Source of the DNA: Candidatus Zixiibacteriota bacterium
Lineage (GTDB): Bacteria > Zixibacteria > MSB-5A5 > GN15 > FEB-12
DNA length: 64,000 nt
Assembly: GCA_029860345.1 (NCBI GenBank)
Contig: JAOUBJ010000007.1
Location: forward strand, 124,001-188,000
Reading direction: 5' to 3'
Below are positions 10,877 to 36,688 of this stretch, piece after piece. Positions within the stretch are counted from its first letter, which is position 1; each line of letters begins with the position of its first letter. Position numbers and translations under genes: made by a program. The notes under the pieces are model-generated. The model was not told the DNA's origin. It saw nothing but the letters and a program-made list of their open reading frames with translations, and did not search any database.

Positions 10877-11104
10877 TGTGTTCGAGCATCACTGAGCCAA
10901 TACGACTGCAAGCGGTAGTAAACCTTCATCATTATGCAGCTGTCTTAACTGGCGAGTCTGGAAATGTTGTGTTCAAGGATCATTTCACCTCTATTCGTTT
11001 GCCGAAAAAAACGCGACCGTCCAGAAAGTTCTTTCGAAATCCGAATATTTGGTTATATCGTATGAACAGACTTGAGAACTTCGTGAATGACTCTTGGTAC
11101 TTAT
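10877..11104 (+). other. Leader region of the glucan locus
   Basis: Together with the terminator this makes a 315-base gap. I find no gene and no copy of the ACTTTGTTCG palindrome seen at 17684 and 36736. A promoter for the GH16-like gene should lie here but is not obvious. Confidence 0.35.
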
Positions 11105-15600: not shown

Positions 15601-16014
15601 TTAAGCGGGGCGACTGCCGAGTTCATTCACATCGTGCAACTGATGGCAGTAGGTCCCCGGCCTTTCCGGCTCAGCCCCAAAGGAGAGCTGCAACTTGGTC
15701 TCAACCTTTCCCTGCCTGGGTGGCTTTTCACTCAAGAAACGCGAAAGATAAGACTGTTCAGACAGAATCAATGGCAAGAAGTTGAACTGCCGGCCAGAAC
15801 CTTCACCTTTATGTTTCTTGGTAAAATCCTGGTCACCTACCACAACATCGAACTGAAAGACACATACGGTGCGGCCGGAGTGACACCTGCCGAATGGAGA
15901 ATAGCAGATAAAAGTGGGATTATTCAAACATTCAACACCGAGACCTTGAGCGGAGAAATAGCCTATAACATTCGTGAAAGAAAGGTCGACAAAATAGACA
16001 TAGTGCTCCGTTAA
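12688..16014 (+). CDS. Cytoplasmic beta-glucan phosphorylase (GH94/GH149/GH161 type)
   Basis: This is a 1108-residue protein with no signal peptide. The N-terminal YYLNEDGEFIITDYNSSKPF and FFPGIAGVNGIPMWVFYVNR segments resemble cellobiose-phosphorylase relatives. The length and these motifs fit the long beta-1,3-glucan phosphorylases of GH149 or GH161 better than GH94, which is nearer 800 residues. A likely catalytic acid is the Asp in GFWTDHWTYNLDLL at about residue 535. Phosphorylases of this kind release glucose 1-phosphate from oligosaccharides inside the cell. The start is TTG with GAGAGG eight bases upstream; no ATG fits better. The surrounding GH16, GH17 and GH3 genes favour laminari-oligosaccharides as substrate. 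The family assignment is from memory of motifs and needs an HMM search. Confidence 0.7.
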   Translation: MEHSDTNKSRYYLNEDGEFIITDYNSSKPFSSFFPGIAGVNGIPMWVFYVNRGQCISSMGIQDKDHSIMEFLPANWAYNLVARQGFRTFIKLSDDSSCSYYEPFQSHYIDRQLKRTQRMIIAPSHLTLEEVNHSLNLKFSVEYFTVPQDNYAGLVRTLRIDNLGPDSVALDGLDGLPLIVPYGVDNFCLKNMRRTIEAFVEVSNFCEKVPFFRSKVEPDDRADVMRITRGNFYVGFETDGSDTNIIAPIVDPTRIFGTQSDLSYPKRFLAVSAEEVFNDQILENQLPCAMGLFRATIPAGESYTYTSIIGHASSIQELNGMVPHIASRDYAESKAQTNQEIVQTLTQNNLICSSEPTLDHYVRQNFLDNVMRGGLPYTIDGDKARSTLYLYSRKHGDMERDYNDFRLMPTYYSQGNGNFRDINQNRRSDVLFNPDIQEYNVEYFYNLIQLDGFNPLVLGEIYFAVGDRDKLYSILEKFIEAEHVQTVKSFFDESFTPGELLVFLDEQDIALGADSEIFLGEILDHCRRICDPDHGEGFWTDHWTYNLDLLENYLAVYPDKFPNLLFWKKTFSFYDNPHRVLPREDKYVLWEQNAMQLGAVVLDEEKERLIENRDQNPNQVRIQSGTGDVYYTSLFNKILCLIVNKLASLDPEGVGVEMEAGKPSWYDALNGLPGLFGSSISESLEIKRHILFLIDKLHESKIDIEEIAIFEELSEFMETVHDILTRNLSPFEFWDSASTAKEHYREKIRMGISGKETTVEFVRIRDFFAAALGKLNEGIEKARDQESNTLFTYFCYDVTGYQMLETTDSHGEKKPKYNANGQPCIKALEFKQVALPLFLEGPVHYLKCLTDMKEAKEFAASVKASGLYDSPLKMYKVNASLSDQPLEIGRARVFSPGWLENESIWLHMEYKYLLELLRAGLYSEFFQEFKNVCIPFLNPDVYGRSLLENSSFIVSSAHPDQSIHGNGFVARLSGATAEFIHIVQLMAVGPRPFRLSPKGELQLGLNLSLPGWLFTQETRKIRLFRQNQWQEVELPARTFTFMFLGKILVTYHNIELKDTYGAAGVTPAEWRIADKSGIIQTFNTETLSGEIAYNIRERKVDKIDIVLR

Positions 16015-16203: not shown

Positions 16204-17325
16204 GTGAATTTCATTACAAACGTTGTTTTGCGTTTTCCCGTAATCGCTGCAATGATTTTGCTCGCTTGCAACCAGAATGAGTCGAACGCAGATCACAAAG
16301 AACCGCAGTCAGTCATGACAAAGCTCATAACCGAACTGGAATCCGGCCTTTCACAAAAGAGGGAAGAGCCATTTGAAATACGTTCTTTCAAACCGTATCT
16401 GGGAGATGTTTGGATAGGGAATGCTGTCGCGTATGGTTGCTATCGGGCCGGTCAGGCTCCGGGACAGAAGGGCCCCGCCGATGAAGAAATTCTGGAAGAC
16501 CTGAACATCATGGCTAAACATTGGAATCTGATAAGGGTCTATGGTGCGGACCGTGATACCAAGCGCATCCTTCGACTGATCGAGACTCACAAACTGCCTA
16601 TCAAGGTGATCCAGGGTATCTGGTTGGAGCCGGAAGAAAACGATCCCGAAAAGAAGAAATCTAACATTGAGCAGGTTACCCTTGGTGTCGAACTGGCAAA
16701 TGAGTATCCAGATATCGTAGTCGCCATAAGTGTGGCCAATGAAACGCAGGTGTTCTGGTCAGGGCATAAGATGAATCCCGAAATCCTGATACGATATACC
16801 CGTGCCGTTCGAAGCAATGTCTCTGTGCCGGTGACGACAGCTGATGACTACCTCTATTGGAACAAGCCTGAAAGTAAACAGGTGGCTGACGAAATCGACT
16901 TTGTCTTTACTCATATACACCCCCTGTGGAACGGAAAGTCGCTGGAGGATGGCATCAGTTGGATGGACGGGGTTTATCATGAACTTCAGGAAGTGCATCC
17001 CGACCGTATGATTGTACTCGGCGAGACCGGCTGGGCCACCGATTACAATGCCAACAAGACCGGACCCGGTGAGCAAGGCACACTGATAAAAGGGAAAGTC
17101 GACATAGCCGCCCAAGCCACGTTCCTGATCCAAATGAACCAGTGGATCGAGTCAAATCAGGTTACTACCTTCCTTTTTGAAGCCTTCGACGAATCCTGGA
17201 AAGGTGGCGGCGAGGATTCCCCGCCAAATGAGGTTGAAAAGCATTGGGGAGTCTATAACGAGGATCGTACTCCGAAAGAGTCATTTCTCAAGTCTCTGCC
17301 GCATCACCGCAAGGTTTTGGATTAG
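16204..17325 (+). CDS. GH17-like glucanase or glucanosyltransferase lipoprotein
   Basis: The 373-residue protein starts with GTG and has a lipobox (LLAC, Cys22), so it is lipid-anchored. The mature domain is a beta/alpha barrel of the GH17 kind. It has the first-strand region around VAYGCYRAGQ, NLIRVYGADRDT, the acid/base Glu180 in SVANET and the nucleophile Glu274 in LGETGWATD. GH17 members cut or rearrange beta-1,3-glucans. The barrel is slightly longer than average, and a YNANKTGPGEQGT loop after the nucleophile is not familiar. It sits 190 bases after the phosphorylase gene, so it may be the last gene of that operon. Endo-glucanase versus transferase activity cannot be told from sequence. 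Confidence 0.78.
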   Translation: MNFITNVVLRFPVIAAMILLACNQNESNADHKEPQSVMTKLITELESGLSQKREEPFEIRSFKPYLGDVWIGNAVAYGCYRAGQAPGQKGPADEEILEDLNIMAKHWNLIRVYGADRDTKRILRLIETHKLPIKVIQGIWLEPEENDPEKKKSNIEQVTLGVELANEYPDIVVAISVANETQVFWSGHKMNPEILIRYTRAVRSNVSVPVTTADDYLYWNKPESKQVADEIDFVFTHIHPLWNGKSLEDGISWMDGVYHELQEVHPDRMIVLGETGWATDYNANKTGPGEQGTLIKGKVDIAAQATFLIQMNQWIESNQVTTFLFEAFDESWKGGGEDSPPNEVEKHWGVYNEDRTPKESFLKSLPHHRKVLD

Positions 17326-17659: not shown

Positions 17660-17708
17660 TTGACAAAATCCGGATTATCTTTTACTTTGTTCGGGAGTCG
17701 AACAAAGT
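17660..17708 (+). promoter_or_regulatory. Promoter with overlapping 25-base palindromic operator
   Basis: TTGACA at 17660-17665, a 17-base spacer and TACTTT at 17683-17688 form a good sigma-70-type promoter. The -10 overlaps a perfect inverted repeat: ACTTTGTTCG (17684-17693), GGAGT, CGAACAAAGT (17699-17708). A repressor bound here would block RNA polymerase. The same arrangement occurs on the minus strand at 36736-36784. The ROK regulator in this operon is the likely ligand-controlled binder (inference). Confidence 0.85.
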
Positions 17709-17780: not shown

Positions 17781-20198
17781 ATGTTCATGCGGACTTCCGT
17801 TCACATTTTGGCGGTGGTTGCGATTATTGTGATGATAGGACTGCTTGGCTGCAGCGACGACAACGGCGTGGGCCCGGCACCGTTCCCGACCCAGAGCGAG
17901 GTGTTCATTGATGAATTCGGCAACAGTGTCACATTCGAGGCGTTTCTTGGTTCTAAGCTTGACGCTGTCCAAATAGATCAAACAGGTTATCAAAGCTCAC
18001 GATCATTGATCGTCACAGTTCCCGATTCCGGTGATGCTTCGGGTAGTTATGCAGGTGGAGCTTTTACTGCCAATGTTGCTCGCGATCTGACTGATTACAA
18101 CGCTCTGACATTCTGGGCAAAAGCCAGTACCGCCGCAACATTGGACGTTGCTGGTATTGGTAACGACAACACAGGAACGTCGAAGTACACCGCCGAAGTT
18201 ACGAATCTGGCTATAACAACCGGCTGGCAGAAATACACAATTCCGATTCCTCTTTCTGAAAAGTTGGATGCCGAACAGGGTCTTTTCTATTTTGCTGAAG
18301 GCCCGGAAGGTGGCGTTGGAAACACAATCTGGTTTGACGAAGTACAATTTGCCCAGCTTTCAACAATTACCAATCCTCGTCCTGCTTTGACCAGCCGGAC
18401 TATTGATGTTGAATCAGGTGAAACCGTTGATGTTGGCAATGCCATTGTAACATTCGATGTTGACGGTACAGATATTAATGTCAGCGCCATGCCGGGATAT
18501 TTTACATTCACCTCATCGAATACCGGGGTCGTTTCTGTTGACGCCGATGGTGTCATTTCCGGTGCCGGAGTAGGTGATGCTACTTTAACTGCCACATTAG
18601 GTACCGTAGCTGCCACAGGTTCCATTACAGTCAATGTAAACACACCGCAGGCTGTTCCTTCTACAGCAGCTCCTACCCCGACGGTGGACGCTGCCGATGT
18701 GATTTCATTGTTCAGCAACGCCTACACTGACGAAACGGTTAATCTGTGGTCAACGGATTGGGATGATACCGACCTTGAGGATATCACGATCGGTTCTGAC
18801 GATATCAAGAAATACTATAATCTGTCATTTGCAGGCGTTGATTTTTCAGACCCAACAATTGACGTGTCATCAATGACCCGTTTTCACATGGATGTATGGA
18901 CACCGGTCCCGACTGATGCTCCGGCGGAGTTTACAATCAAGCTGGTCGATTTCGGCGCCGACGGTGCCTTTGGTGGGGGTGACGATCGTGAGCATGAACT
19001 TGCATTCGATGAAAACACTATGTCTTCTGAAAGCTGGGTGAGTATAGACGTTCCTCTTCTGGCCTTCTCCGGATTAACTACTAAAGGGCATCTCGCTCAG
19101 ATGATAATCTCCGGTGATCTCGGAACGGTTTACATAGACAATATTTATTTCTACGACGCCGGTCCCCAAACAGCGCCGACAGTTCCAGCACCGACACCTA
19201 CAGTTGGCGCTGCTAATGTCATCTCTCTTTTCAGCGATGCCTACACCGACGTGCCGGTTGATACCTGGTCGGCGGTCTATGATGTCGCCGATGTTGAAGA
19301 ATATGCGATCGGTTCTGATAACACGAAAAAATACAGTAACCTTCTCTTTGCAGGCATAGAGTTTCTTACTACCACGGTTGATGCTTCTGCGCTGACTCAT
19401 TTCCATATTGATGTCTGGACAGCCGATGCAACAGCTTCGCCGGCCCTGTTCAAAATCAAGCTGGTTGATCTTGGAGCCAATGGAGTCTATGGTGGTGGTG
19501 ACGATGTTGAACATGAAGTCACTTTAGATCACAACACTATGAACACCGGCATCTGGGTAAGCATAGATATTCCTCTGTCCAGTTTCAGCGGTCTAACCAC
19601 AAGAGGACAACTTGGTCAGTTGATTATTTCTGGAAATCCAAACACTGTATTCGTTGACAATATCTACTTCTATGATTCAGGTATCCCGACTATCCCGCTG
19701 GTTCCGGCACCGACACCCACACTTGATGCTGCCGATGTTGTTTCGTTGTTCAGCGATGCCTACACCGACGTGCCTGTTGATACCTGGTCGGCTGCCTGGG
19801 ACAGCGCAACAGTCGAAGACTTTATGATTGGGTCTGATGCCACCAAAAAATACAGTTACCTTCTTTTTGCCGGCATAGAGTTCAAGACTACTACGATTGA
19901 TGCTTCTGCGATGACTCATCTCTATATGAATGTATGGACACCAGATGCGACAGCTTCACCGTCAGTACTCAAAATCAAACTGGTCGATTTTGGAGCCAAT
20001 GGTGTTTGGGATGGGGGTGACGATGTCGAACATGAAATCACTTTAGATGAAAGCAGCATGAATACCAGCAGTTGGGTGACTCTTGATATACCCTTGAGTG
20101 ACTTCGTTGATTTGACAACAAAAGGACACCTGGCTCAGTTAATCATCTCAGGCGATCCAAACACCCTATATGTTGACAATATATATCTCCATAAGTGA
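17781..20198 (+). CDS. Lipoprotein with three carbohydrate-binding-like modules
   Basis: The 805-residue lipoprotein (lipobox LLGC, AAGGAGG site five bases before the ATG) has these parts in order. A galactose-binding-like domain with a DEFGNSVTFEAFLGSKLDAV start covers about 35-190. A bacterial Ig-like (Big_2 type) domain covers about 195-290 (VVSVDADGVISGAGVGDATL). Three repeats of about 165 residues follow, each with a VISLFS.AYTD start, a (T/S)HFHMDVWTP-type core and an end like LAQLIISGDPNT(V/L)YVDN. The repeat is a predicted beta-sandwich like modules attached to laminarinases in other bacteria. It has no catalytic domain, so it is probably a surface glucan-binding protein, perhaps doing the SusD/SusE/SusF job. 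First gene of the operon. Confidence 0.75.
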   Translation: MFMRTSVHILAVVAIIVMIGLLGCSDDNGVGPAPFPTQSEVFIDEFGNSVTFEAFLGSKLDAVQIDQTGYQSSRSLIVTVPDSGDASGSYAGGAFTANVARDLTDYNALTFWAKASTAATLDVAGIGNDNTGTSKYTAEVTNLAITTGWQKYTIPIPLSEKLDAEQGLFYFAEGPEGGVGNTIWFDEVQFAQLSTITNPRPALTSRTIDVESGETVDVGNAIVTFDVDGTDINVSAMPGYFTFTSSNTGVVSVDADGVISGAGVGDATLTATLGTVAATGSITVNVNTPQAVPSTAAPTPTVDAADVISLFSNAYTDETVNLWSTDWDDTDLEDITIGSDDIKKYYNLSFAGVDFSDPTIDVSSMTRFHMDVWTPVPTDAPAEFTIKLVDFGADGAFGGGDDREHELAFDENTMSSESWVSIDVPLLAFSGLTTKGHLAQMIISGDLGTVYIDNIYFYDAGPQTAPTVPAPTPTVGAANVISLFSDAYTDVPVDTWSAVYDVADVEEYAIGSDNTKKYSNLLFAGIEFLTTTVDASALTHFHIDVWTADATASPALFKIKLVDLGANGVYGGGDDVEHEVTLDHNTMNTGIWVSIDIPLSSFSGLTTRGQLGQLIISGNPNTVFVDNIYFYDSGIPTIPLVPAPTPTLDAADVVSLFSDAYTDVPVDTWSAAWDSATVEDFMIGSDATKKYSYLLFAGIEFKTTTIDASAMTHLYMNVWTPDATASPSVLKIKLVDFGANGVWDGGDDVEHEITLDESSMNTSSWVTLDIPLSDFVDLTTKGHLAQLIISGDPNTLYVDNIYLHK

Positions 20199-24565: not shown

Positions 24566-24745
24566 GTGAATGTACTATCGGATCGGAATAACTTAGGTTC
24601 CCAAGAACGACCTTTGGCCGATCCGGTAGTACGTCTCATCTGGCGGGAGAAGCAGGCGACTCCTGTGGACGATTCCCGGCAGGTGGGACTGTCCCGTTCT
24701 ATCGTCTCAGAGCCAACGAATAACCTTCTAAAAATGAACTTGTAA
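24566..24745 (+). CDS. Mini-ROK: 59-residue truncated regulator ORF
   Basis: A GTG with CGGAG seven bases upstream opens 59 codons with no internal stop. The product aligns without any gap to residues 1-59 of the ROK protein at 27629, with about 30 identities, including ERPLA, WREK, GLSRS and VSE of the helix-turn-helix. Many codon differences are synonymous (for example in the ERPL, RL.WREK and LSRS stretches), so it evolved as coding sequence for some time. The recognition helix is damaged (a Pro after VSE, and Asp/Ser in the first helix), so DNA binding is doubtful. Its TAA overlaps the ATG of the GH16 gene (TAATG), so it may now serve translation of that gene. Too short for ordinary gene calling. 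Confidence 0.55.
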   Translation: MNVLSDRNNLGSQERPLADPVVRLIWREKQATPVDDSRQVGLSRSIVSEPTNNLLKMNL

Positions 24746-27594
24746 TGCTTTGCCGTATCCTGAGGCTAATCTTCCTGTCGGCCTCTTTTGCGATCTTAAT
24801 GTCCAATAACGGTTATTCCAGTCCATCTGATTCATCCGGGACCTGGACGTTGGTCTGGAACGATGAATTCGGCGGTACGGCCGGAGAGTCGCCCGATGCT
24901 GGTAACTGGGGATATGATATAGGGACCGACTGGGGCAATGCGCAGCTTGAATACGACACCGACCGTCCTTCTAATGTGTCTTTGGATGGAAACGGAAATC
25001 TCGCCATTATCGCCCGTGAAGAATCCTATATGGGTCGGCAGTATACGTCGGCAAGGATAGTGACAAGGGGTCTGTATGAACCGACTTACGGCAGAGTCGA
25101 GGCTCGTATCAATCTTCCAACCGGACAGGGTATCTGGCCCGCATTCTGGATGCTCGGCAGTGACTTCACCACAGTTGGCTGGCCCCAGTGTGGCGAGATT
25201 GATATCATGGAATATCTCGGACATCAGACAAATACGGTTTATGGTACTATTCACGGTCCCGGTGCTTATGGCGGAGGTGGTGTTGGAACGTCGTATGTTT
25301 TGGAGGACGGACAGTTCGATACCGACTTTCATGTTTTCGCGGTGGAATGGGAAGAAGACGTGATCAGGTGGTATGTGGACGACGTCAATTATTATACAGT
25401 CACTCCGGACAGTCTCGGCGGCAACGAATGGGTGTTTGACCACCCGTTCTACATTATTCTGAATGTAGCAGTCGGCGGTAACTGGCCCGGACCTCCCGAT
25501 GGTTCGACGGTTTTCCCTCAGACAATGCTCGTCGATTATGTCAGAGTTTACCAAAGGGGTTCATCTGCAGAATCATGCTGTCGAGGTTTCACAGGCAATG
25601 TTGACAATTCACCGAGCGAAACAGTTGATATTACTGACCTGGTTTATATGGTCGATTATATGTTTTCAGGAGGCTCACCCCCACCTTGCATGCAAGAAGT
25701 CGATATGGACGGGAGTCCGGGGATTGACATTGGTGACCTGGTCTATCTTGTCGACTACATGTTTACCGGTGGTCCTTTGCCTCTCGAATGTCCAGCCCCG
25801 CTGGATTTTGTATTCACGGATGAATTCCACGGTACGGTATTTTATCAGGCATTCCTCGGTTCCAAACTGGACGCCGTTCAGATCGATCAGACTATTATGT
25901 ATGCAGGCACACAGGGGTTGGTAGTAACCGTTCCGGATGTTGGAGACCCATCCGGAAATTATGCCGGGGGGGCATTTACGACCTCCATAGCCTTTGACTT
26001 AACAAAGTATAACGCACTTACATTCTGGGCGAAAGCGAGTACAGCCGCAACACTGGATATCGCCGGGATCGGCAATGATAATACCGGAACATCAGAATAC
26101 ACAGTCGATGTGAATGACCTTGCACTTACGACAACATGGCAAAAATACATCATTCCCTTCCCCCTTGCCGAGAAGTTAGACAATGAGCAAGGACTTTTCT
26201 ACTTTGCCGAAGGACCGGAAAACGGTAGCGGGTATCAGATTTGGATGGATGAAATTATCTTCGAAGACCTGGCGACCATAACCAACCCGCGTCCCGCCTT
26301 GAACTCACAGACAGTTGACGTGGAATCCGGTGATACTATCTTTGTCGATTACGGTACGGCTACTTTCGACGTTGACGGCACTGATTTAGATGTGAGCTTT
26401 ATGCCGGGATATTTCAGCTTCTTATCTTCAGATGAACTTGTGGTATCGGTCGGTGTCGATGGAACTATCACAGCCGTTGGAATCGGCACTGCAACCATAA
26501 CAGCAACTCTCGGCGCCACGGCTGCTACCGGGACGATTACAGTCAATGTAAACGCACCTCCAGACGAACCGGCAACATCAGCCCCGACGCCGACAGTTGA
26601 TGCCGGCAGTGTAATCTCCCTTTTCAGTGATGCCTACACCGATGTGACCGTTGATACCTGGTCGGCTCCGTGGGACCAGGCTGATGTCGAAGATTTTATG
26701 ATCGGTCCTGATGCCACGAAGAAGTACACTAACCTTGTCTTTGCCGGTATAGAGTTTACATCTACTACGGTTGATGTCTCTGCGATGACCCATTTCCACA
26801 TGGATGTATGGACCCCGGACAACACCAATGCGCCTTCGGTGTTCAAAGTTAAGCTGGTAGACTTTGGTGCCAATGGTGTTTGGAGCGGCGGCGATGATGT
26901 TGAGCACGAAATAACCCTTAACGAATCTACTATGAACACCGGAAGCTGGGTAAGTATTGATCTTGCTTTAACAGATTTCACTAACCTGACAACCAAAGAG
27001 CATCTGGCTCAGTTACTCATCTCGGGTGATCCAAATACAGTTTATGTGGATAATATTTACTTCTATGATGCCGGTTCTCCCACAGCTCCGACAGTTGCGG
27101 CTCCGACGCCGACAGTTGGTGCTGCCGATGTTATATCCTTGTTCAGCGATGCCTACACCGATGTGCCGGTAGACACTTGGTCGGCTGTCTGGGATGTTGC
27201 CGATGTTGAGGACTATGCAATCGGTTCTGACAACACCAAGAAATACACCAACCTTGTTTACGCCGGTATAGAGTTCAAGACTACTACCGTTGATGCATCG
27301 GCCATGACTCATTTTCACATGGATTTATGGACGCCGGACCCAACTATGTCTCCAGCGGTTTTCAATATCAAGCTGGTCGACTTTGGCGCCAATGGAGTTT
27401 GGGATGGTGGTGGTGACGATGTCGAACATGAGTTGTCTCTTGACCACAATACAATGAATACCGGTAGCTGGGTTAGTATTGAACTTGCTCTGTCGGATTT
27501 CACCGGTCTGACGACCAGAGCACATTTGGCTCAGTTGATAATTTCGGGTAATCCCAATACTGTATATGTTGATAATGTCTACTTTCATAAGTAA
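24745..27594 (+). CDS. Secreted GH16 laminarinase with dockerin and two binding-like modules
   Basis: The 949-residue protein has a signal peptide ending near GYS, then a GH16 catalytic domain at about 30-270. The E-x-D-x-x-E signature is intact (Glu151, Asp153, Glu156 in GEIDIMEY), with GQGIWPAFWML and FHVFAVEW flanking it, as in beta-1,3-glucanases (laminarinases). Two dockerin-like motifs (ITDLVYMVDYMF, IGDLVYLVDYMF), the galactose-binding-like domain, a Big_2-like domain and two ~165-residue modules follow. It should cut laminarin outside the cell or on its surface. Its start codon overlaps the stop of the mini-ROK frame. The catalytic domain is highly similar to the small GH16 lipoprotein at 28855, which points to duplication. 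Confidence 0.92.
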   Translation: MLCRILRLIFLSASFAILMSNNGYSSPSDSSGTWTLVWNDEFGGTAGESPDAGNWGYDIGTDWGNAQLEYDTDRPSNVSLDGNGNLAIIAREESYMGRQYTSARIVTRGLYEPTYGRVEARINLPTGQGIWPAFWMLGSDFTTVGWPQCGEIDIMEYLGHQTNTVYGTIHGPGAYGGGGVGTSYVLEDGQFDTDFHVFAVEWEEDVIRWYVDDVNYYTVTPDSLGGNEWVFDHPFYIILNVAVGGNWPGPPDGSTVFPQTMLVDYVRVYQRGSSAESCCRGFTGNVDNSPSETVDITDLVYMVDYMFSGGSPPPCMQEVDMDGSPGIDIGDLVYLVDYMFTGGPLPLECPAPLDFVFTDEFHGTVFYQAFLGSKLDAVQIDQTIMYAGTQGLVVTVPDVGDPSGNYAGGAFTTSIAFDLTKYNALTFWAKASTAATLDIAGIGNDNTGTSEYTVDVNDLALTTTWQKYIIPFPLAEKLDNEQGLFYFAEGPENGSGYQIWMDEIIFEDLATITNPRPALNSQTVDVESGDTIFVDYGTATFDVDGTDLDVSFMPGYFSFLSSDELVVSVGVDGTITAVGIGTATITATLGATAATGTITVNVNAPPDEPATSAPTPTVDAGSVISLFSDAYTDVTVDTWSAPWDQADVEDFMIGPDATKKYTNLVFAGIEFTSTTVDVSAMTHFHMDVWTPDNTNAPSVFKVKLVDFGANGVWSGGDDVEHEITLNESTMNTGSWVSIDLALTDFTNLTTKEHLAQLLISGDPNTVYVDNIYFYDAGSPTAPTVAAPTPTVGAADVISLFSDAYTDVPVDTWSAVWDVADVEDYAIGSDNTKKYTNLVYAGIEFKTTTVDASAMTHFHMDLWTPDPTMSPAVFNIKLVDFGANGVWDGGGDDVEHELSLDHNTMNTGSWVSIELALSDFTGLTTRAHLAQLIISGNPNTVYVDNVYFHK

Positions 27595-27628: not shown

Positions 27629-28858
27629 ATGTGCTCACAATCAGATAAAAACAACACGCCTCCCAAAGAGCGACCCCTGGCCAATTCGGTTCGCCGTCTG
27701 GTCTGGCGCGAAAAGAGAACAACCAGAGCTGAGATTGCACGGTTGACCGGGCTGTCTCGTTCTACAGTTTCCGAGATTGTTGACAGTCTGCTAACCACCG
27801 GGCTCATAGAAGAGATCGGTGCCGGCAAGTCAAGCGGCGGTCGGCGTCCGATCGTACTTGAGTTTCAGGATGAAGCCAGGTGTATCCTGGGTGTAGATCT
27901 GGGAGCTACTCACGTAGGGGTAGTTCTGACCGATCTTCGAGGCAACGTCCTGGCCTGGAAGGAGCGCCGCCATCCGGTGAGATCCGATCCCAAGGGTTCC
28001 CGAGAACTGGTCATCGCCCTGTGTGACGAGTGCCTGAATGAGAGTGGCAAGGATAAGGGATCGCTCTTGAGTATCGGGGTAGCGGTGCCCAGTCCGGTAG
28101 ATCCTCTTAACCCAAAACTTCTTTCGGAAGTAGTGATTCCCGCCTGGCGTGGAGAAAGCGGACTGGAGCAACTTCAGCAATATTACGGCGTCAAGGTCCA
28201 TGTCGACAACGACGCCAATTTGGGCGCGGTGGCTGAAAATTGGTGGGGGGCTGGTCAAGGGATTGAGGATCTCGTATACATTAAGGTCGCACATGGAATC
28301 GGCGCCGGCTACATCCTGAATGGAGACGTATATCGTGGCGCCGCAGGCGTAGCAGGTGAGATGGGCCACCTGCCTATCGATCCAAACGGCTCCCCTTGCG
28401 TCTGCGGTCTCAAGGGCTGCCTGGCAACATTAGTCGGAGCGCCGGCGGTATCAGAGCGTGCGCGTGAATTGGCAGGGGATTATCCCGACAGTTGCCTCAA
28501 GATCAATTCTGCACCTTTCTCAGACTTGAGGGTAGCTGTAGAGCAGGGCGACGCACTCGCAACTCGACTTGTGGATGAAATCACCGATTATCTGGCCATT
28601 GCGATTGCAGGCTGGTTCAATCTCATGAATCCCAAACTCGCAATTCTGGGCGGAAGTATGGCCAGTCTCGGTGAATTCGTTGTGGGTCCTCTGAGGGAAA
28701 AGGTCAGGGGCAATACTCTGGTAAGCAAAGCGGCGGTGAGTATCAGGATCGGCGAACTCGGCCCGAGAGCGGTTGCAGTCGGTGCGGCAACACTGGCCCT
28801 GCAGGCGATGTTTTCAGATCCTCAACCGGTTGGTAGCAGTGAGCAGCCAAGGACATGA
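27629..28858 (+). CDS. ROK-family transcriptional repressor
   Basis: The 409-residue protein has an N-terminal winged helix-turn-helix at about 25-75 (AEIARLTGLSRSTVSEIVDS) and a ROK sugar-kinase-like domain. The first glycine-rich loop is GVDLGATHVGVVLTD, followed by DNDANLGAV, the GEMGHLPID motif and a zinc site CVCGLKGC. ROK repressors of the NagC/XylR type leave DNA when a sugar or sugar phosphate binds. It lies inside the glucan operon and its stop overlaps the next start (ATGATG). It is the best candidate for the palindromes at 17684 and 36736. Its own ribosome binding site is weak (AACGGC), weaker than those kept by the two truncated copies upstream. Confidence 0.92.
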   Translation: MCSQSDKNNTPPKERPLANSVRRLVWREKRTTRAEIARLTGLSRSTVSEIVDSLLTTGLIEEIGAGKSSGGRRPIVLEFQDEARCILGVDLGATHVGVVLTDLRGNVLAWKERRHPVRSDPKGSRELVIALCDECLNESGKDKGSLLSIGVAVPSPVDPLNPKLLSEVVIPAWRGESGLEQLQQYYGVKVHVDNDANLGAVAENWWGAGQGIEDLVYIKVAHGIGAGYILNGDVYRGAAGVAGEMGHLPIDPNGSPCVCGLKGCLATLVGAPAVSERARELAGDYPDSCLKINSAPFSDLRVAVEQGDALATRLVDEITDYLAIAIAGWFNLMNPKLAILGGSMASLGEFVVGPLREKVRGNTLVSKAAVSIRIGELGPRAVAVGAATLALQAMFSDPQPVGSSEQPRT

Positions 28859-29676
28859 TGCGCTGGCGGACGCTAACAAATACTGTTCATATAATCTCGA
28901 TCGTTGCCACTTTGGTGTTGAACGGATGCAGCAACTCTACAGATTCGAAAATGATATACCGCTTAGTATGGAACGATGAATTTGACGGACCGGTGGGCCA
29001 AAAGCTCGGCTCCGACAAATGGGGCTACGATGTCGGTACCGACTGGGGTAACGCTCAACTTGAGTACGATACCGACCGAGCTGAGAATGTCTCCCTGGAT
29101 GGAAACGGCAATCTAGCCATTGTCGCCCGCAAGGAGTCCTATCAGGGACAACCATACACCTCGGCTCGGATCGTGACACGGGATTTGTTCGAACCAAAGT
29201 ACGGCAGGATTGAGGCCCGAATCAAACTCCCGACCGGTCAGGGTATCTGGCCGGCTTTCTGGATGCTGGGTAATGACATCAAAACCGTTAGCTGGCCCCA
29301 ATGCGGCGAGATAGACATTATGGAATATCGTGGTCAGCATTCGCATGTCATCCACGGCAGTCTGCATGGCCCAGGCTACGCCGGGGGACGCGCCCTGTCT
29401 CGCAGTTACACGCTTGATGGAGCAGGATTCGATACCGACTTTCACGTTTTTGCGGTTGAATGGACCCGGGGGAGGATCGATTGGCACGTGGATGGTAGTC
29501 ACTACCTGACTATCCTGCCGGAGCATGCCAATGGTGATTGGGTGTTTGATCACCCGTTCTATATTATTCTGAATGTGGCTGTAGGTGGCCACTGGGTCGG
29601 ACCGCCCAACGAAAACACTGTTTTCCCGCAAACAATGTTGATTGACTACGTTCGAGTATACGCTGGAGAGTCATGA
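28855..29676 (+). CDS. GH16 laminarinase lipoprotein
   Basis: The 273-residue protein has a lipoprotein signal (LVLNGC) and a single GH16 domain. The catalytic signature is intact: Glu152, Asp154 and Glu157 in GEIDIMEY. It is close to the catalytic domain at 24745 throughout (shared GTDWGNAQLEYDTDR, SLDGNGNLAI, LPTGQGIWPAFWML), but has no dockerin or binding modules. It starts inside the ROK stop codon, so it is translationally coupled. As a lipid-anchored enzyme it would cut glucan fragments at the cell envelope, after longer pieces are made by the modular enzyme. Confidence 0.92.
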   Translation: MMRWRTLTNTVHIISIVATLVLNGCSNSTDSKMIYRLVWNDEFDGPVGQKLGSDKWGYDVGTDWGNAQLEYDTDRAENVSLDGNGNLAIVARKESYQGQPYTSARIVTRDLFEPKYGRIEARIKLPTGQGIWPAFWMLGNDIKTVSWPQCGEIDIMEYRGQHSHVIHGSLHGPGYAGGRALSRSYTLDGAGFDTDFHVFAVEWTRGRIDWHVDGSHYLTILPEHANGDWVFDHPFYIILNVAVGGHWVGPPNENTVFPQTMLIDYVRVYAGES

Positions 29677-29719
29677 TCACTCACGGCCTTCTGCGTGACA
29701 ACCCCTTTGAGGAGTTTTG

Positions 29720-31192
29720 ATGAACCCATCGCAGCACTTTGAAACTGCTCCGGAAGACCGGATTTCCCTCGCACAAAGACTGGTCTATGGCCTCGGCGGA
29801 TTGATAAACAACTTACTGGCCGCTGCCAGTGGCGGTATGATGATTGTTCTCAATCTCGGCCTCGGCATGAATCCCGCCCTCGTCGGTCTGCTGGGAGCGC
29901 TGCCTCGTTTCACCGATGCGCTGACGGACCCGATGATGGGATTTATTTCCGACCGCACCAAGTCAAGATGGGGAAGGCGTCGGCCATACATCTTTTGTGG
30001 CGCCATAGCCGCCGGTCTGATATTTGCCGCGCTGTGGCAATTACCGAGAGGGCAGAGCGAGACTTTCTACTTTATCTGGTTCCTTGCCGGTTCGATTCTT
30101 TTCTACATGGGATATACCGTGTTTGCCACTCCCTGGGTTGCCTTGGGGTATGAGTTGACGCCAGATTATCACGAGCGCACTCGTCTCATGGGTACGCAGA
30201 ACTTCCTCAGCCAACTCGCCTACGTGGTATCACCCTGGTTTTTGTGGATAATGACTTACCAGGGTTGGTTCAAAGATCAGATCGACGGCGCCGCCGGCCT
30301 GGCCATCATCATCGCCGCGGTGACTATTGGAGTTGGTATCCTACCTGCCATCTTTCTCAGAGAGCGTCTCAAAGGGATCGCTGTGGCCGAGATTACCGCT
30401 GAGGGTCAGAAATCCCAGAGTACCGCTGCCGCCTTCAAGCGAAATATTATCGAGTTCTTCAAAGGGTTTGCCGCTACTATAAAGTCGGGACCGTTTTTGA
30501 AACTCGGCCTGGCGACCTTTTTAGTTTTCAATGGCTTCATTCTGATAGCCGCCTTTCAGTCCTACGTGACTATTTATTACGTCTGTGGCGGGGATCAGAA
30601 TTTGGGTGCGGAATACGTAGGGTACACCGGAAGCGTCGCTGCGGTTTCCACCTTTATCGTTATTCCCATCGTAACATGGCTCGCTACCAAGATTGGTAAA
30701 CGGCGCGCCTTCTTCTACTCGACCGGCATCTCCATGGTCGGCTATGCTGTAAAATGGATCTGTTACAATCCTGAAATTCCCTGGCTGGTCGTGGTCCCGG
30801 CGCCGCTGCTTGCTTTCAGTCTGGGGGGTTTGTTCACGCTGATGCCTTCGATGATGGCCGATGTTGTTGATCTCGATGAACTCGAAACTCACGAACGCCG
30901 CGAGGGGATGTTCGGCTCCATATTCTGGTGGGTTGTAAAACTCGGAATGTCAGCCGCTCTGGCCGGTGGCGGATTCTTGCTCAACGCTAGTGGCTTCGAT
31001 GTTGAGCTGGGGGAAAGTCAGACCGTTAGTGCCCTCTTCTTGATGCGGATTTTTGACGTCGTTATCCCAATTGTGACATCAGCGATTGCGATCTGGGCAG
31101 TGGCCACATTCCCGATTACCGAAAAGAAAGCGCGCGAAGTAAGAGAAGAGTTGGAACGCAGAAGAGGCAAGGGGAACGAAGTAGCATCGTAA
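29720..31192 (+). CDS. GPH-family sugar:cation symporter
   Basis: The 490-residue protein has about 12 hydrophobic segments and the loop motif TDPMMGFISDRTKSRWGRRR of the glycoside-pentoside-hexuronide (MelB-like) family of the major facilitator superfamily. The ATG at 29720 has GAGGAG upstream; a TTG one codon earlier is less likely. It is the last gene of the plus-strand operon, 43 bases after the GH16 lipoprotein. It should carry mono- or oligosaccharides, here probably laminari-oligosaccharides or glucose, across the inner membrane for the GH3 and the phosphorylase. Confidence 0.9.
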   Translation: MNPSQHFETAPEDRISLAQRLVYGLGGLINNLLAAASGGMMIVLNLGLGMNPALVGLLGALPRFTDALTDPMMGFISDRTKSRWGRRRPYIFCGAIAAGLIFAALWQLPRGQSETFYFIWFLAGSILFYMGYTVFATPWVALGYELTPDYHERTRLMGTQNFLSQLAYVVSPWFLWIMTYQGWFKDQIDGAAGLAIIIAAVTIGVGILPAIFLRERLKGIAVAEITAEGQKSQSTAAAFKRNIIEFFKGFAATIKSGPFLKLGLATFLVFNGFILIAAFQSYVTIYYVCGGDQNLGAEYVGYTGSVAAVSTFIVIPIVTWLATKIGKRRAFFYSTGISMVGYAVKWICYNPEIPWLVVVPAPLLAFSLGGLFTLMPSMMADVVDLDELETHERREGMFGSIFWWVVKLGMSAALAGGGFLLNASGFDVELGESQTVSALFLMRIFDVVIPIVTSAIAIWAVATFPITEKKAREVREELERRRGKGNEVAS

Positions 31193-31266: not shown

Positions 31267-33471
31267 TCAATCGGTGATTTCGAATTCTGCTCTTAGGTCA
31301 GTATCGGAACATCCCCCGATCCAAAGGTGAAATTCTCCCGGCTCGGTGACAAGTTGCATCTGTCGGTTGTAAAAGGCCAGATCATCCGTGCTCAACTCGA
31401 AGCTGACCGTCTTGCCGGCGCCTGGACTAAGTTTGATCCGTTGGAATCCTTTTAGCTCTTTGACGGGTCGAGTTACGCTCCCCACCAGATCTCTGACGTA
31501 TAGCTGTACGACTTCCTCTGCCTCGACAGCACCTGAGTTGTGAAGGTCGACCGTCACTGTAAAGCTACTGCCCATCGGTATGCTGACGCTGGACAACATG
31601 AGATTCGTATACTCGAACTTAGAATACGAAAGACCGAAGCCGAATGGAAACAGTGGAGAGTTTGGTACATCCAGGTGAAACGAGGTGTCGCCAAAAGAGT
31701 GTTGAGGTGCATTGAGCTCGATGTCATCCATGCTCACGACCGATTCGGACGTGCCCGGACGACCGGTGTTCTTGTGCGAGTAGTAAATAGGAATCTGTCC
31801 GGCAACTCGGGGGAAGGTAACCGGTAGTCTGCCCGAAGGGGACTCTTTGCCGAAAAGAAGATCAACAATCGCCGGTCCGGCCATACTACCCGGATGCCAG
31901 GCACAAAGGAGGGCGTCGAACTTACCGACCACACTCTGCAAAGCGAGTGGTCGGCCGGCCATTAGCACTACGATTAACGGCTTGCCCAACCGACACATCT
32001 CCTCAATCAGCTCTTCCTGATTTCCCGGAAGGGAGATATCGGCCCGGCAGTGAGCCTCACCGGCCAGGATCGACTCTTCACCCAGGAACATAACAACTGC
32101 ATCAGACTTACTAGCGGCTTCTATCGCCTCAGGGAACCCATCGCGTGTTCGGCTACGCGTGCTTTCCATGCCACGAGCGTAGTGGATTTCAAACTCTCCG
32201 CCAAACTGTGTCTGCAGTGCCGCCACGGGAGTCTGACTCAACGATGGATCTCCGTCGAATACCCATGTCCCAAGCTGTTCGTATCCATCGTTAGCCAGTG
32301 GACCGATCAGGGCCAGTGACTTCAATCGGTTGGGCTTAAGAGGCAGAAGCTCATTCTTGTTTTTCAGTAGCACGATACTCTCAACAGACGCTCTTTTGGC
32401 AATCTCAAGGTGGTTGGCCGGCGACAGTGGATCTGATGCTGCCGTCGTTTTTATTGGATCATCAAAGAGTCCCAGCAGAATCTTCACCCTAAGTATATTG
32501 CCAACCATCGTGTCGATACGTTCGACAGATATCCTATCTTCTTCAACGAGCGCACCAAGGTAGTCAGCAAATGTGCTGCTGGTCATTTCCATATCGACAC
32601 CCGCGCTGGCAGCTTCGTAAGCCGACTCCTTGTCGTCGGACGTAAGTCCGTGGACCGATAGCTGGCTGATTGATTCCCAGTCGCTAACCACAAATCCATC
32701 GTATCGCCACTCTTCGCGGAGAATCTGTCGCAATAGAAACGGATTGGCCGATGCAGGGACGCCATTAAGGTCACCGAACGAAGTCATGAATGACGCCACT
32801 TGGGCCTCAGCGGCTGCACGGAACGGAACCAGATGGACATTGCGAAGTTCGTGTTCCGATAAATTGGTAGTGTTGTAGTCTTTGCCGCTTTCACTGGCGC
32901 CGTAACCAGCGAAGTGTTTGGCGCACGCAGCAATACTGTCCGCCCGAGCCAAGTCCTCACCCTGGAAACCGGCAATCATAGACTTGGCCAGCTCTGCGCA
33001 CAAGTGTGTGTCCTCGCCGAATGATTCTGCTATTCTACCCCAGCGCGGATCACGGCTTATGTCTATCATCGGAGCGAAGGTCCAGTTGACACCCGCTGCG
33101 GAAGCCTCAATTGCCGAGATTCGACCGCATTGTTCCACCAAGGTTGGGTTCCAGGTGGCCGCCAATCCCAATGGAATCGGAAAAACGGTCTTGAATCCGT
33201 GAATAACGTCGCGGCCAATCAACAAAGGAATCCCCAGACGACTCTCCTTCAGTGCAACTTGTTGGAGTTCGTCAACAGTCGTGACATCAACTTCGTTCAA
33301 CAGGCCGCCGATCTTGCCACCCGCAATGGAGTTTCGCAATTCCGGCGGGATGGAGCCACCCCCACCGTTGATCAGAGAGAGTTGCCCGATCTTTTCTGCA
33401 AGAGTCATTTGCTCCAGAAGATCGGTAGTCCGTTTTTCAACTACGTCCGGATTGTCAGTCACTTGTCTCAA
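31267..33471 (-). CDS. Cytoplasmic GH3 beta-glucosidase
   Basis: This 734-residue GH3 enzyme has the N-terminal barrel with the KHFAGYG segment and the nucleophile Asp264 in FVVSDWES. An alpha/beta sandwich (VVMFLGEESILAGEAHCRAD) and a C-terminal fibronectin-type III-like domain follow. No signal peptide is seen, so it should act inside the cell on imported oligosaccharides to give glucose. The start used is a TTG with AAGGA seven bases upstream; an in-frame GTG three codons later is an alternative. The gene lies 14 bases after the barrel-fusion glycosidase gene on the minus strand, in the same operon and under the same operator. Confidence 0.9.
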   Translation of the reverse strand: MRQVTDNPDVVEKRTTDLLEQMTLAEKIGQLSLINGGGGSIPPELRNSIAGGKIGGLLNEVDVTTVDELQQVALKESRLGIPLLIGRDVIHGFKTVFPIPLGLAATWNPTLVEQCGRISAIEASAAGVNWTFAPMIDISRDPRWGRIAESFGEDTHLCAELAKSMIAGFQGEDLARADSIAACAKHFAGYGASESGKDYNTTNLSEHELRNVHLVPFRAAAEAQVASFMTSFGDLNGVPASANPFLLRQILREEWRYDGFVVSDWESISQLSVHGLTSDDKESAYEAASAGVDMEMTSSTFADYLGALVEEDRISVERIDTMVGNILRVKILLGLFDDPIKTTAASDPLSPANHLEIAKRASVESIVLLKNKNELLPLKPNRLKSLALIGPLANDGYEQLGTWVFDGDPSLSQTPVAALQTQFGGEFEIHYARGMESTRSRTRDGFPEAIEAASKSDAVVMFLGEESILAGEAHCRADISLPGNQEELIEEMCRLGKPLIVVLMAGRPLALQSVVGKFDALLCAWHPGSMAGPAIVDLLFGKESPSGRLPVTFPRVAGQIPIYYSHKNTGRPGTSESVVSMDDIELNAPQHSFGDTSFHLDVPNSPLFPFGFGLSYSKFEYTNLMLSSVSIPMGSSFTVTVDLHNSGAVEAEEVVQLYVRDLVGSVTRPVKELKGFQRIKLSPGAGKTVSFELSTDDLAFYNRQMQLVTEPGEFHLWIGGCSDTDLRAEFEITD

Positions 33472-33485
33472 TCTTCATCCTTCAC

Positions 33486-36400
33486 TTAGTTACCGACATA
33501 TAGGTGCAAGTAAGTTCTGATCTCCCACTCGTTACCGTCGTCAGCATCTGGGTTTGGTATGGGACCGTCCGGGCCCGGCAGTGAAGTGGGACGATACCGG
33601 GAGGAGTATTCGTCGAGCGACCGCCAGATGGCCTTCACGCCAAGCCGTGTTTGCGGCAGGGCGAACCACTCGGGCTTCCCGATGAACGTTGAAATGTCAG
33701 CATACAATTGAATCGGAAAGGTAAGGTTGTGATCACGATGGTAATCATAAGGGCCCCAATCGTTAAGTTCAATAGCAGCCTGCAACCTCGTGGATCCGGA
33801 GATAAGGCGAACATCAGCTCCATACCGATCAATCAGTCTTGGATCGTCTCCGTGTGGTTCACCTTTGCCCGCGTAAAGATTGGCAATCATACTAAAGTCT
33901 GGCCTAAGTTTCGAGACTATTCGAGCACGAGCTTCCCATACATCACGTGCCGGGGTGGCACCGGGGAACGGGTAGATAGGATTACCAGCAGCAGAATCAA
34001 AGAAAAGAGCCGCATCCATAGTCGTTTTATAGTGCTTGATAATGAGACCAAAGGTCGCTGCGAGTTTGGCGTCTTCGCGTATATCGCTATCCCAGAGATA
34101 CATCCATGTAGCAGGGGTCGGGTCGTAGGTAATAACGATTTCGCCGGCGACCATCTCGCGGTTTTCACGAACAGCAAAGGCATCGTCCCGAACGTTGCGC
34201 GGATGTCCGGGTTGTGGAACATCTGCAGGCATTGGACCCTTGAGAGGTTTTTGCCACAAGAAGTTGGGAGATACTTCGAGATTTCCGAAACGGGTTGAAA
34301 CACCGGTTATGAGATTTCGTTGGTTTCCCTTCCCACTCTCCTTCAACCACCAATCAGAGTAAGTTTGGGTCAATGTAGGTCCACCGTCGGCAACCAGTCC
34401 CATGGATGCTCCTTGAAGGTACCAAAGCCAGCTTCCCATGGAGTAGCTCAGTTTGAATTTACCGCCAAAAGCGTCCTTGGATTCTATGCTGTCCTGCAAA
34501 ACTTCGTAGTTACCTTCTGTTCCCTTTACGAACTGAAAAGGCTGCCCAACTTTGTTATCACCAGACCAGATTCCGCCCAGTTCGACTGTCAGTGGTCCGC
34601 GATTGATCTCGAGATGGAGAGTGGCCTTCTTTGTCTTGGGCAGGGGGATCGCCGTGGAAGTAACAGCGTTCGTTTGATCGGCAAGATCATGCTGGTAGAT
34701 TCCAGTCGCCAGAACAGATCCGATTCTCCGTTGGTATTTCAACAGGGCGGCCGGGTTCGCTCCCCACCAGAGTTCCGGCCCTATCGCGAACTTAAGACCA
34801 TTGAGGTTCTTTTTTCCGGTGAACTCCAACCCCAACGGTGCTTCGCCGTTATAAATGTCTATGTTCGGTCCGTAGTTGGCCTCGCGGTAAAGACCGAAAA
34901 AATCTCCCTCATATCCCCAGTGATAGTGACCTGTTCGGTAGAACCCTTCAACGTCGAACAAGCGTCCGGCCCAGGAAACTGATGCGCTATAGACCTTGAG
35001 ACGTTCGATATCTTTCAATTCGATCTCGCCGTTATTGAACACGATAGCTTGCACCCGGCCACGATTCTCATAAAAAATCTCGTCAATCGGGTTCTCAGGA
35101 ACGTGTCCTATATAATTCAATGCCAACGTGCCTCGCACAGCCCCCGAGGGCTTCGCCTCGATTTCTGTGTAATAAGACTCCAGGTGATCAAAACCTTGGA
35201 ACGCGGGGTATCCCGGCGGGCCTGGATTTTTGGGTGTGGTGACATTGATACCACCCGTGCTGATTGTCTCAAATCTGAACCAGGCGCGACTTACCCTAAC
35301 CCTGCCGCCTGTCTCCGCAGTGAGGGCAGCTTTGTTGCCTCTAGCTTCAAGGGCCGCTCCCATTGGAGTGATTTTGGAAAAGTGAGCGCGAATTGTCTCC
35401 AGTGAGGTGCTTGGCCCGTATGGGTCCAGAGTATACGCCTTTTTCAACGCGTAATAAGCAGCCCTCGGGTAAAGTTGGTATAGACCTGAAGCATCGGGGA
35501 ATCCCTTGGCACAAATACCCCACCACTCCTCGTTCATATTATTCTCGCCCGGTATCAAGTCTTCTTGGTATCCGCCGTTGGGCCAGGAGGCGTTTATGTC
35601 GTGTATATCGAGATTCTCCTCCTGCTTGTATTTCCACCAACCATCCGAGAACTGAAATGTGAATCCACCGCAGGCGTTACCGATTCTGCCTTTGTCATGC
35701 GACTGTTCATAGATTTCCTGCCATTGACCGATCAAATAGCGCGCCTGAGTCTGCTGATCTTCCTGCAGGGTTTTGGCATTGAACGCATCAGCGCCGAACT
35801 CTGTGAAGATATAGGGGATACCCATTTTCTCTTTGACAACTTCAAAGGCGTCTCGTGCCGAAATCCCGCGGTATACATTGGAACCAAGGATATCCAGGTT
35901 CGATAGTTCCTCGGCGATGATATCGATATATTGCAGATCACCGTTGGCCATCGCGACAGGACGCCCAGGGTCCCTGGACTTAATCATGTCGGTAACATCG
36001 CCGAACAACGTGTAGAGATAACGAGCTTTGGCCGCCCTGCGTTCACCCTCGGGTAGAGCCTCGGTTTCGGCCGAGCTCCATTCAAGTCCATAGTTGTTTT
36101 CGTTGCCTAACAGCCAGAAGAGCATTCCCGGCGTACCATCAAACTCGGCGACAAGAGCTTCCATCTCCGCCATAAGCACGGCGCGCGTGGTGGGGTCGGA
36201 GTAGTCGGTGATGGGTGTCCATACACCGTTGAGCGTCAACCCGTAGCGCCCCAGCGGATGGTTAACAACGGTATAGATGCCATACGTCTCATATATGTAC
36301 TTGACCCATCGAGGTGGGATGCCAACATAGTGACGAATGGTGTTGACACCCATATTCTGCAAAAGCGGCATCTCACGGGCGAGGGCGGCCATGATAAAAT

Positions 36401-36647
36401 CGTCCGACTGAGTCCAGAGACTGTAAGCATAGTTCTTTCCGATCGGGATATAGCCCCAGTTCATTCCCTTGATCATGAAATCGGCGCCGTTGACCTGGAG
36501 CTTCGATCCCGATTGGTCATTGATGATCTTGACTGTTGGTACTTCAGTCGCCATCACCGGTTGAACGGAAGTGCCGGCAATTACTATGGCCAGCAAGACA
36601 ATAACGACCGATACGGTATGATTGATACGCGGAGTTGCAGTAGTCAT
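33486..36647 (-). CDS. Clan GH-A glycosidase fused to a predicted outer-membrane beta-barrel
   Basis: The 1053-residue protein has a signal peptide cut near VMA (residue 33). Residues ~38-420 form a clan GH-A barrel like GH2/GH5: strand GADFMIKGMNWGY, acid/base Glu183 in LLGNENNYG and nucleophile Glu283 in IFTEFGADAF. Residues ~430-1053 contain no known enzyme motif. They are a long series of short alternating amphipathic strands with polar turns (LAATFGLIIKHYKTTMDAAL, ADVRLISGSTRLQAAIEL) and end in EIRTYLHLYVGN, with aromatic and hydrophobic residues placed as in outer-membrane barrel proteins. I infer an enzyme tethered to, and perhaps feeding, its own pore. A soluble beta-sandwich array is the alternative. 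First gene of the minus-strand operon. Confidence 0.72.
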   Translation of the reverse strand: MTTATPRINHTVSVVIVLLAIVIAGTSVQPVMATEVPTVKIINDQSGSKLQVNGADFMIKGMNWGYIPIGKNYAYSLWTQSDDFIMAALAREMPLLQNMGVNTIRHYVGIPPRWVKYIYETYGIYTVVNHPLGRYGLTLNGVWTPITDYSDPTTRAVLMAEMEALVAEFDGTPGMLFWLLGNENNYGLEWSSAETEALPEGERRAAKARYLYTLFGDVTDMIKSRDPGRPVAMANGDLQYIDIIAEELSNLDILGSNVYRGISARDAFEVVKEKMGIPYIFTEFGADAFNAKTLQEDQQTQARYLIGQWQEIYEQSHDKGRIGNACGGFTFQFSDGWWKYKQEENLDIHDINASWPNGGYQEDLIPGENNMNEEWWGICAKGFPDASGLYQLYPRAAYYALKKAYTLDPYGPSTSLETIRAHFSKITPMGAALEARGNKAALTAETGGRVRVSRAWFRFETISTGGINVTTPKNPGPPGYPAFQGFDHLESYYTEIEAKPSGAVRGTLALNYIGHVPENPIDEIFYENRGRVQAIVFNNGEIELKDIERLKVYSASVSWAGRLFDVEGFYRTGHYHWGYEGDFFGLYREANYGPNIDIYNGEAPLGLEFTGKKNLNGLKFAIGPELWWGANPAALLKYQRRIGSVLATGIYQHDLADQTNAVTSTAIPLPKTKKATLHLEINRGPLTVELGGIWSGDNKVGQPFQFVKGTEGNYEVLQDSIESKDAFGGKFKLSYSMGSWLWYLQGASMGLVADGGPTLTQTYSDWWLKESGKGNQRNLITGVSTRFGNLEVSPNFLWQKPLKGPMPADVPQPGHPRNVRDDAFAVRENREMVAGEIVITYDPTPATWMYLWDSDIREDAKLAATFGLIIKHYKTTMDAALFFDSAAGNPIYPFPGATPARDVWEARARIVSKLRPDFSMIANLYAGKGEPHGDDPRLIDRYGADVRLISGSTRLQAAIELNDWGPYDYHRDHNLTFPIQLYADISTFIGKPEWFALPQTRLGVKAIWRSLDEYSSRYRPTSLPGPDGPIPNPDADDGNEWEIRTYLHLYVGN

Positions 36648-36670: not shown

Positions 36671-36688
36671 CTTTGTTAGCGAACAAAA
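36671..36688 (-). promoter_or_regulatory. Partial operator-like site in the leader
   Basis: On the minus strand this reads ATTTTGTTCG (9 of 10 match to the operator arm) followed by an AACAAAG at a shorter spacing than in the full operators. It lies about 25-40 bases before the start codon of the barrel-fusion gene. It may be an auxiliary half-site or chance. Confidence 0.35.

Follow-up and report, generated by a model that had tools for sequence, protein, structure and literature searches.

A predicted fusion of a glycosidase to an outer-membrane beta-barrel in the beta-1,3-glucan loci of Zixibacteria, Bacteroidota and other phyla

Glycan entry across the outer membrane in PULs is the role of SusC/SusD complexes, and it is this role that we propose here for a single protein of a different make: SusC/SusD has a TonB plug domain, a lipoprotein lid, 22 strands and no enzyme domain. 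The enzyme most readily compared is BuGH158 of Bacteroides uniformis (PDB 6PAL), which shares with our protein a GH-A fold, an aligned Asn-Glu acid/base and Glu nucleophile, and a locus for beta-1,3-glucan with GH16 and GH3 (PMC7157763). However, BuGH158, a small lipoprotein, has an Ig-like domain and no barrel and is encoded in a PUL with SusC/SusD (PMC7157763). In concept, the MFS-GH17 fusion of Formosa comes closest; it likewise joins a glucanase to a membrane transporter in laminarin use, but its transporter is an unrelated inner-membrane permease with no barrel (PMC6246565). Outer-membrane barrels of similar fold include AlgE, the OprD/OccK porins, LamB, chitoporin and the FimD/PapC ushers, the last with the same 24 strands; in contrast to the present protein they carry no glycosidase domain, and at about 10% identity the likeness is at fold level only. 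The open-access papers searched contained no account of a glycosidase joined to a barrel of the outer membrane. The parts are known and their combination was not found described there, in line with an initial annotation of this DNA, which knew of no described enzyme with such a layout.

The gene in question lies in a window of 64,000 nucleotides from a Candidatus Zixiibacteriota bacterium (Table 1). Its reading frame is intact, with zero internal stops. As the initial annotation had proposed, a GH-A glucanase-like domain is joined to a predicted outer-membrane barrel, and a single polypeptide combining a glucan-cutting enzyme with a 24-strand barrel is supported by the structural model, fold matches, strand statistics and conservation in more than 100 homologues. 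Inspection of N-termini identified a Sec signal peptide in the fusion protein and a lipobox-like motif ahead of the GH domain in 1 of 79 homologues. Our main reading, to which we assign a probability of roughly 0.55, is that the protein acts as an outer-membrane pore with a glucanase at its periplasmic mouth and imports laminarin-like beta-1,3-glucan.

Table 1. Features of the fusion gene and its surroundings (positions in the window; residue numbers refer to the fusion protein)
Feature	Position	Strand	Basis
Fusion gene, GH-A enzyme plus predicted outer-membrane barrel, 1053 aa	33486..36647	-	ORF and full-length homologues
Signal peptide, residues 1-34, signal peptidase I type, without lipobox Cys	36546..36647	-	Sequence
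GH-A TIM barrel, residues 36-412, GH158/GH157-like	35412..36542	-	Pfam, alignment to 6pal, folds
Catalytic N182/E183	36099-36104	-	Alignment to BuGH158
Catalytic E283	35799-35801	-	Alignment to BuGH158
Linker, residues 413-449, helices 416-424 and 428-446	35301..35411	-	AlphaFold models
Predicted 24-strand outer-membrane beta-barrel, residues 450-1052	33492..35300	-	AlphaFold, strand statistics, fold matches
GH161-type beta-1,3-glucan phosphorylase	12688..16014	+	PDB 9qqk, E 1.3e-229
GH17-like enzyme	16204..17325	+	Pfam
Operator-like palindrome ACTTTGTTCGGGAGTCGAACAAAGT, before + strand operon from 17781	17684..17708	.	Sequence similarity
Putative glucan-binding protein, homologous to the gene adjoining the fusion in most loci	17781..20198	+	Homology; no confident Pfam family
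Second putative binding protein, 1400 aa	20329..24531	+	Pfam scan and locus comparison
GH16 protein with extra domains	24745..27594	+	Pfam
ROK-type regulator	27629..28858	+	Named from sequence alone
GH16 lipoprotein, endo-beta-1,3-glucanase-like	28855..29676	+	Pfam; lipobox LNGC
MFS sugar transporter	29717..31192	+	Pfam
GH3 beta-glucosidase (BglX-like), same operon, downstream of fusion gene	31267..33471	-	Pfam, NCBIfam
Operator-like palindrome TTTGTTAGCGAACAAA, before fusion gene	36672..36687	.	Sequence similarity
Second operator-like site TTTGTTCTCTTACCGAACAAA	36738..36758	.	Sequence similarity

The enzyme half has the TIM barrel fold of clan GH-A. PF02836 (GH2 TIM barrel; residues 83-304, E 3.3e-9) was the sole Pfam family in the protein, next to a weak match to beta-galactosidase in NCBIfam. 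Both glutamates expected of a GH-A domain were present: E183 and E283, together with N182, were invariant in 82 sequences and aligned with N136/E137 and E220 of BuGH158, whose mutation abolished activity (PMC7157763). This Asn-Glu/Glu pattern is common to clan GH-A and is therefore not specific for GH158. When a profile of the 82 full-length homologues was searched against solved structures, BuGH158 was the best relative (E 6e-7), followed by GH158(Pro), with GH2 beta-galactosidases close behind. Structural scores were nearly tied between GH157 (Z 28.6), beta-glucuronidases (27) and GH158 (26.9), so we describe the domain, from sequence and model, as clan GH-A, GH158/GH157-like, with no single family assigned. 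Full membership of GH2 was rejected because the N-terminal jelly roll and Ig-like sandwich domains that precede the TIM barrel in that family are missing; ahead of the barrel there are only the signal peptide and short strands, and Pfam GH2_C alone matches. Endo-beta-1,3-glucanases of GH158 and GH157 rank among the nearest relatives, and the enzyme half probably cuts beta-1,3-glucan (laminarin, of algal or fungal origin).

Residues 305-1053 matched no family in Pfam or NCBIfam, non-barrel domains included. This lack of a covering sequence family would also suit a soluble, beta-rich C-terminal part for which the barrel model is an artefact, a reading that we find barely credible in view of what the models gave. 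AlphaFold, run on the C-terminal part alone with 81 homologues (pLDDT 85.0, pTM 0.80), produced 24 long strands from residue 450 to 1052, the full-length model agreed, and no soluble sandwich appeared in either run. The two faces of the strands differ in hydrophobicity by 0.66, compared with 0.30 +/- 0.05 when segments of the GH domain were drawn at random, none of 2000 draws reaching 0.66. Linkers average 23 aa after odd strands and 5 aa after even strands (p = 1.3e-4). The modelled strands are amphipathic and even in number, the periplasmic turns are short and the outer loops long, a pattern typical of outer-membrane barrels whose two ends lie in the periplasm. Conservation is higher on the lumen face (0.76) than on the lipid face (0.62). 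The best Foldseek matches were BtuB3G3, MOMP, OprC, porins, LptD and ushers. A second structural aligner returned exclusively outer-membrane barrels in its best 50 rows (AlgE, porins, ushers), with AlgE first (Z 15.3, rmsd 6.2 over 299 residues) and usher barrels aligned over about 360 residues, spanning the first to the last strand.

These results agree with the earlier description of the C-terminal part as a barrel of amphipathic strands. As to the accompanying statement that it ends like a barrel protein, the last strand is conserved as EWEIRTYLHxNIGx, and the final residue is N in the fusion protein and mostly K, M or N in the family, with only 5 of 82 homologues ending in F or W. An aromatic residue at the C-terminus of the last strand is frequent in outer-membrane barrels, although not universal. 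Two known classes of barrel were rejected: the protein has no plug domain PF07715, which argues against a TonB/SusC receptor, and it has no usher sequence domains, strand count and fold being all that it has in common with FimD/PapC chaperone-ushers. The long loops at 571-604, 626-632 and 964-976 show 93-99% conservation and abound in W, Y and H; such near-invariant aromatic loops are unusual on the outer side, and their composition would fit a saccharide-binding entrance. We also observed that two of the otherwise tiny periplasmic turns, residues 842-862 and 989-1000 (window 33648-34124, - strand; e.g. DPTPATWMYLWDSDIREDAKL), are long and conserved; the GH domain may dock there.

The enzyme could be displayed outside, with the linker threading the barrel in the manner of an autotransporter and the barrel serving mainly as anchor, to give a surface laminarinase in a role like that of SusG or GH16. 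The order of an N-terminal passenger, a helix and a C-terminal barrel is that of autotransporters, the cell would benefit from a glucanase at its surface, and surface exposure is expected for BuGH158 within its own PUL (PMC7157763). We nevertheless consider this arrangement unlikely. In the models, strand 1 starts on the short-turn, periplasmic side. Residues 411-440 have a pLDDT of 87-94 when the GH domain is included and 66-75 when it is not, which suggests that the linker helices pack on the enzyme. The second of these helices ends at 446 and strand 1 begins at 450; three residues are too few to cross the membrane, and the enzyme is thus most likely at the periplasmic mouth, under the pore. 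Moreover, a classical autotransporter has a translocator of 12 strands rather than 24, no autotransporter family matched, and conservation is higher on the lumen side. With 52 effective sequences, mutual information computed across the two domains gave no decision on the side of the enzyme. Of the pore or anchor suggested at first, anchoring of the enzyme at the cell surface is the less likely and probably wrong.

The fusion is conserved far beyond this genome. Only four other carriers were found among 132 genomes of the phylum-level group to which the window belongs, 63-71% identical across the whole length. With the C-terminal part alone as query and one genome per species, at least 500 relatives were obtained, the nearest named ones being MAGs of Zixiibacteriota. 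The 80 best, whose loci were compared, are 51-66% identical and belong to Bacteroidota, Ignavibacteria, Gemmatimonadota, Calditrichia, KSB1, Zixibacteria and others; all 80 have the enzyme domain in frame with the C-terminal part, one of them being truncated at the end of its contig. Relatives are single ORFs of about 1030-1270 aa overall. In a sample of 392 Bacteroidota genomes, 38 (10%) carry the fusion, nearly always as a single copy, in frames of about 1030-1090 aa. The search returned no barrel-only relatives, the short matches sitting near contig ends, and neither part is missing from any complete family member found; since enzyme and barrel always occur together, the fusion is no accident of assembly or annotation. 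One member, WP_022275059.1 of Bacteroides finegoldii, is 52% identical over 96% of the protein and lies in a GH16/BglX cluster without annotated SusC/D. Its RefSeq name, "glycoside hydrolase family 2 TIM barrel-domain containing protein", covers the enzyme half only and leaves the barrel unannotated.

The surroundings of the fusion are similarly conserved. Among 50 well-covered loci, in which 7.5 kb or more flank the homologue on either side, GH16 was present in 48, as was a gene like that of the putative binding protein (an immediate neighbour in 33); MFS was present in 29, GH17 in 26, a GH149/GH161 phosphorylase in 25 and GH30 in 20, and the loci also include GH3. The GH149 assignment comes from a curated model and is far above its cut-off. 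From this gene content, the substrate is very probably beta-1,3-glucan. Searched by phmmer with 10 TonB-receptor and 2 SusD queries, SusC/SusD appeared in only 3 of the 50. The genome of the window has no SusD, and the contig of the window has no TonB plug. Among the matches listed, SusD is lacking altogether in 10 of 49 carrier genomes; most Bacteroidota carriers have SusC/D elsewhere in the genome, so that the imported product could use those.

This distribution also bears on whether the barrel is open. The long conserved loops might fill the lumen and leave the modelled barrel as a mere anchor for the enzyme beneath a separate transporter, with import through another porin or TonB receptor; TonB receptors and plugs do exist on other contigs of the genome. 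We regard a closed barrel as quite improbable: 24 strands exceed the needs of an anchor, and apart from the fusion these loci conserve no candidate for an outer-membrane channel. It is plausible, as suggested at first, that the fusion, with its predicted pore, stands in for SusC/SusD at these loci.

In the window, the GH3 gene starts 14 bp downstream of the fusion gene on the same strand, consistent with the initial placement of the fusion at the head of an operon, and this operon faces the cluster on the + strand. The gene at 12688-16014, which had been guessed from its size to encode a TonB receptor, was reassigned to GH161 by its PDB match. Two further genes were noted. A 443-aa protein (11087-12418, +) is conserved near the fusion in several loci (L011, L045, L047 and L067) and had no match in Pfam, NCBIfam or the PDB. 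Directly upstream of the fusion gene, 37247-43108 (-) encodes a protein of 1953 aa, which contains about 14 HYR_4C repeats as well as a sorting tail for type IX secretion.

The catabolic neighbours (phosphorylase, MFS, beta-glucosidase) also speak against traffic in the opposite direction. In that case the protein would export or remodel the cell's own beta-glucan, an exopolysaccharide, with the GH domain trimming chains at an exit pore as in PgaA/PgaB or AlgE systems. The alginate exporter AlgE is the closest single-barrel fold (Z 15), and enzymes of GH-A and those like GH72 or GH17 can be transglycosylases; a weak GH72 match was noted. The cluster of the window showed neither a glycosyltransferase nor a synthase, and export is very improbable.

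For import, we propose the following mechanism. At the surface, the neighbouring binding protein and the GH16 lipoprotein would bind the glucan and shorten it. Chains would then pass into the 24-strand barrel, whose entry would be lined by the aromatic-rich extracellular loops, and the tethered GH158-like domain would cut them as they emerge, preventing back-diffusion and pulling the flow inward. GH3, GH17 and GH30 enzymes, the MFS permease and the GH149/GH161 phosphorylase would complete degradation. We infer an open pore and an inward flow in this scheme, in which the pore-plus-cutter would fill the outer-membrane role held elsewhere by SusC/SusD.

More tentatively, and at somewhat under even odds, such SusC/SusD-independent entry, with laminarin pulled in by a glucanase at the inner mouth of the pore, would be a widespread and overlooked route in Bacteroidota and several other phyla. 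It would have been overlooked because finders of glycan loci seek SusC/D and because the gene is filed as GH2. A conserved laminarin locus of Muricauda contains a "GH2" of unclear role beside GH16, GH149, GH17, GH30 and MFS (PMC13188888), and marine laminarin PULs contain an unclassified "GH0" beside GH149 (PMC10108472); both may belong to the present family. If the proposal is true, a single-chain pore-plus-enzyme, carried by about 10% of the Bacteroidota genomes sampled and by members of other phyla, would be a second outer-membrane solution. The detection and annotation of such loci would change accordingly, and the protein would suggest how hydrolysis can drive transport without TonB. Many bacteria may then import laminarin, an abundant sugar, by a pore with a built-in cutter, as opposed to the textbook SusC/SusD.

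For the operator that the initial annotation had described as shared, the support is sequence similarity: similar palindromes precede both operons. In a comparison of upstream regions, ACTTTGTTCGGGAGTCGAACAAAGT resembled both sites before the fusion gene and was a better shared site than the strict pattern TTTGTTN4AACAAA, which gave one perfect site and 5 in total at no more than 2 mismatches, against 2.2 expected. The regulator, called ROK-type from its sequence and conserved in 17 of 80 loci, is a candidate to act on this operator.

Phage records held no match to the fusion protein. Plasmid records held only two full-length relatives, one of them in a record with valS and rpsA that may thus be chromosomal: NZ_OY725931.1, labelled as a plasmid of Bacteroides finegoldii, carries genes for valine--tRNA ligase, rpsA and glutamine synthetase and resembles a chromosomal piece. 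One locus with the outer-membrane fusion also encodes, as a single frame of 1113 aa (L013:1015-4353, -), an MFS permease joined to a GH3 beta-glucosidase: both membrane transporters of the pathway can be enzyme-fused. In another (L005:1498-5292, -), the fusion relative has about 200 extra residues before the GH domain and shares 56% identity with part of the GH16 protein at 24745-27594 of the window; the region common to the two is possibly a glucan-binding module.
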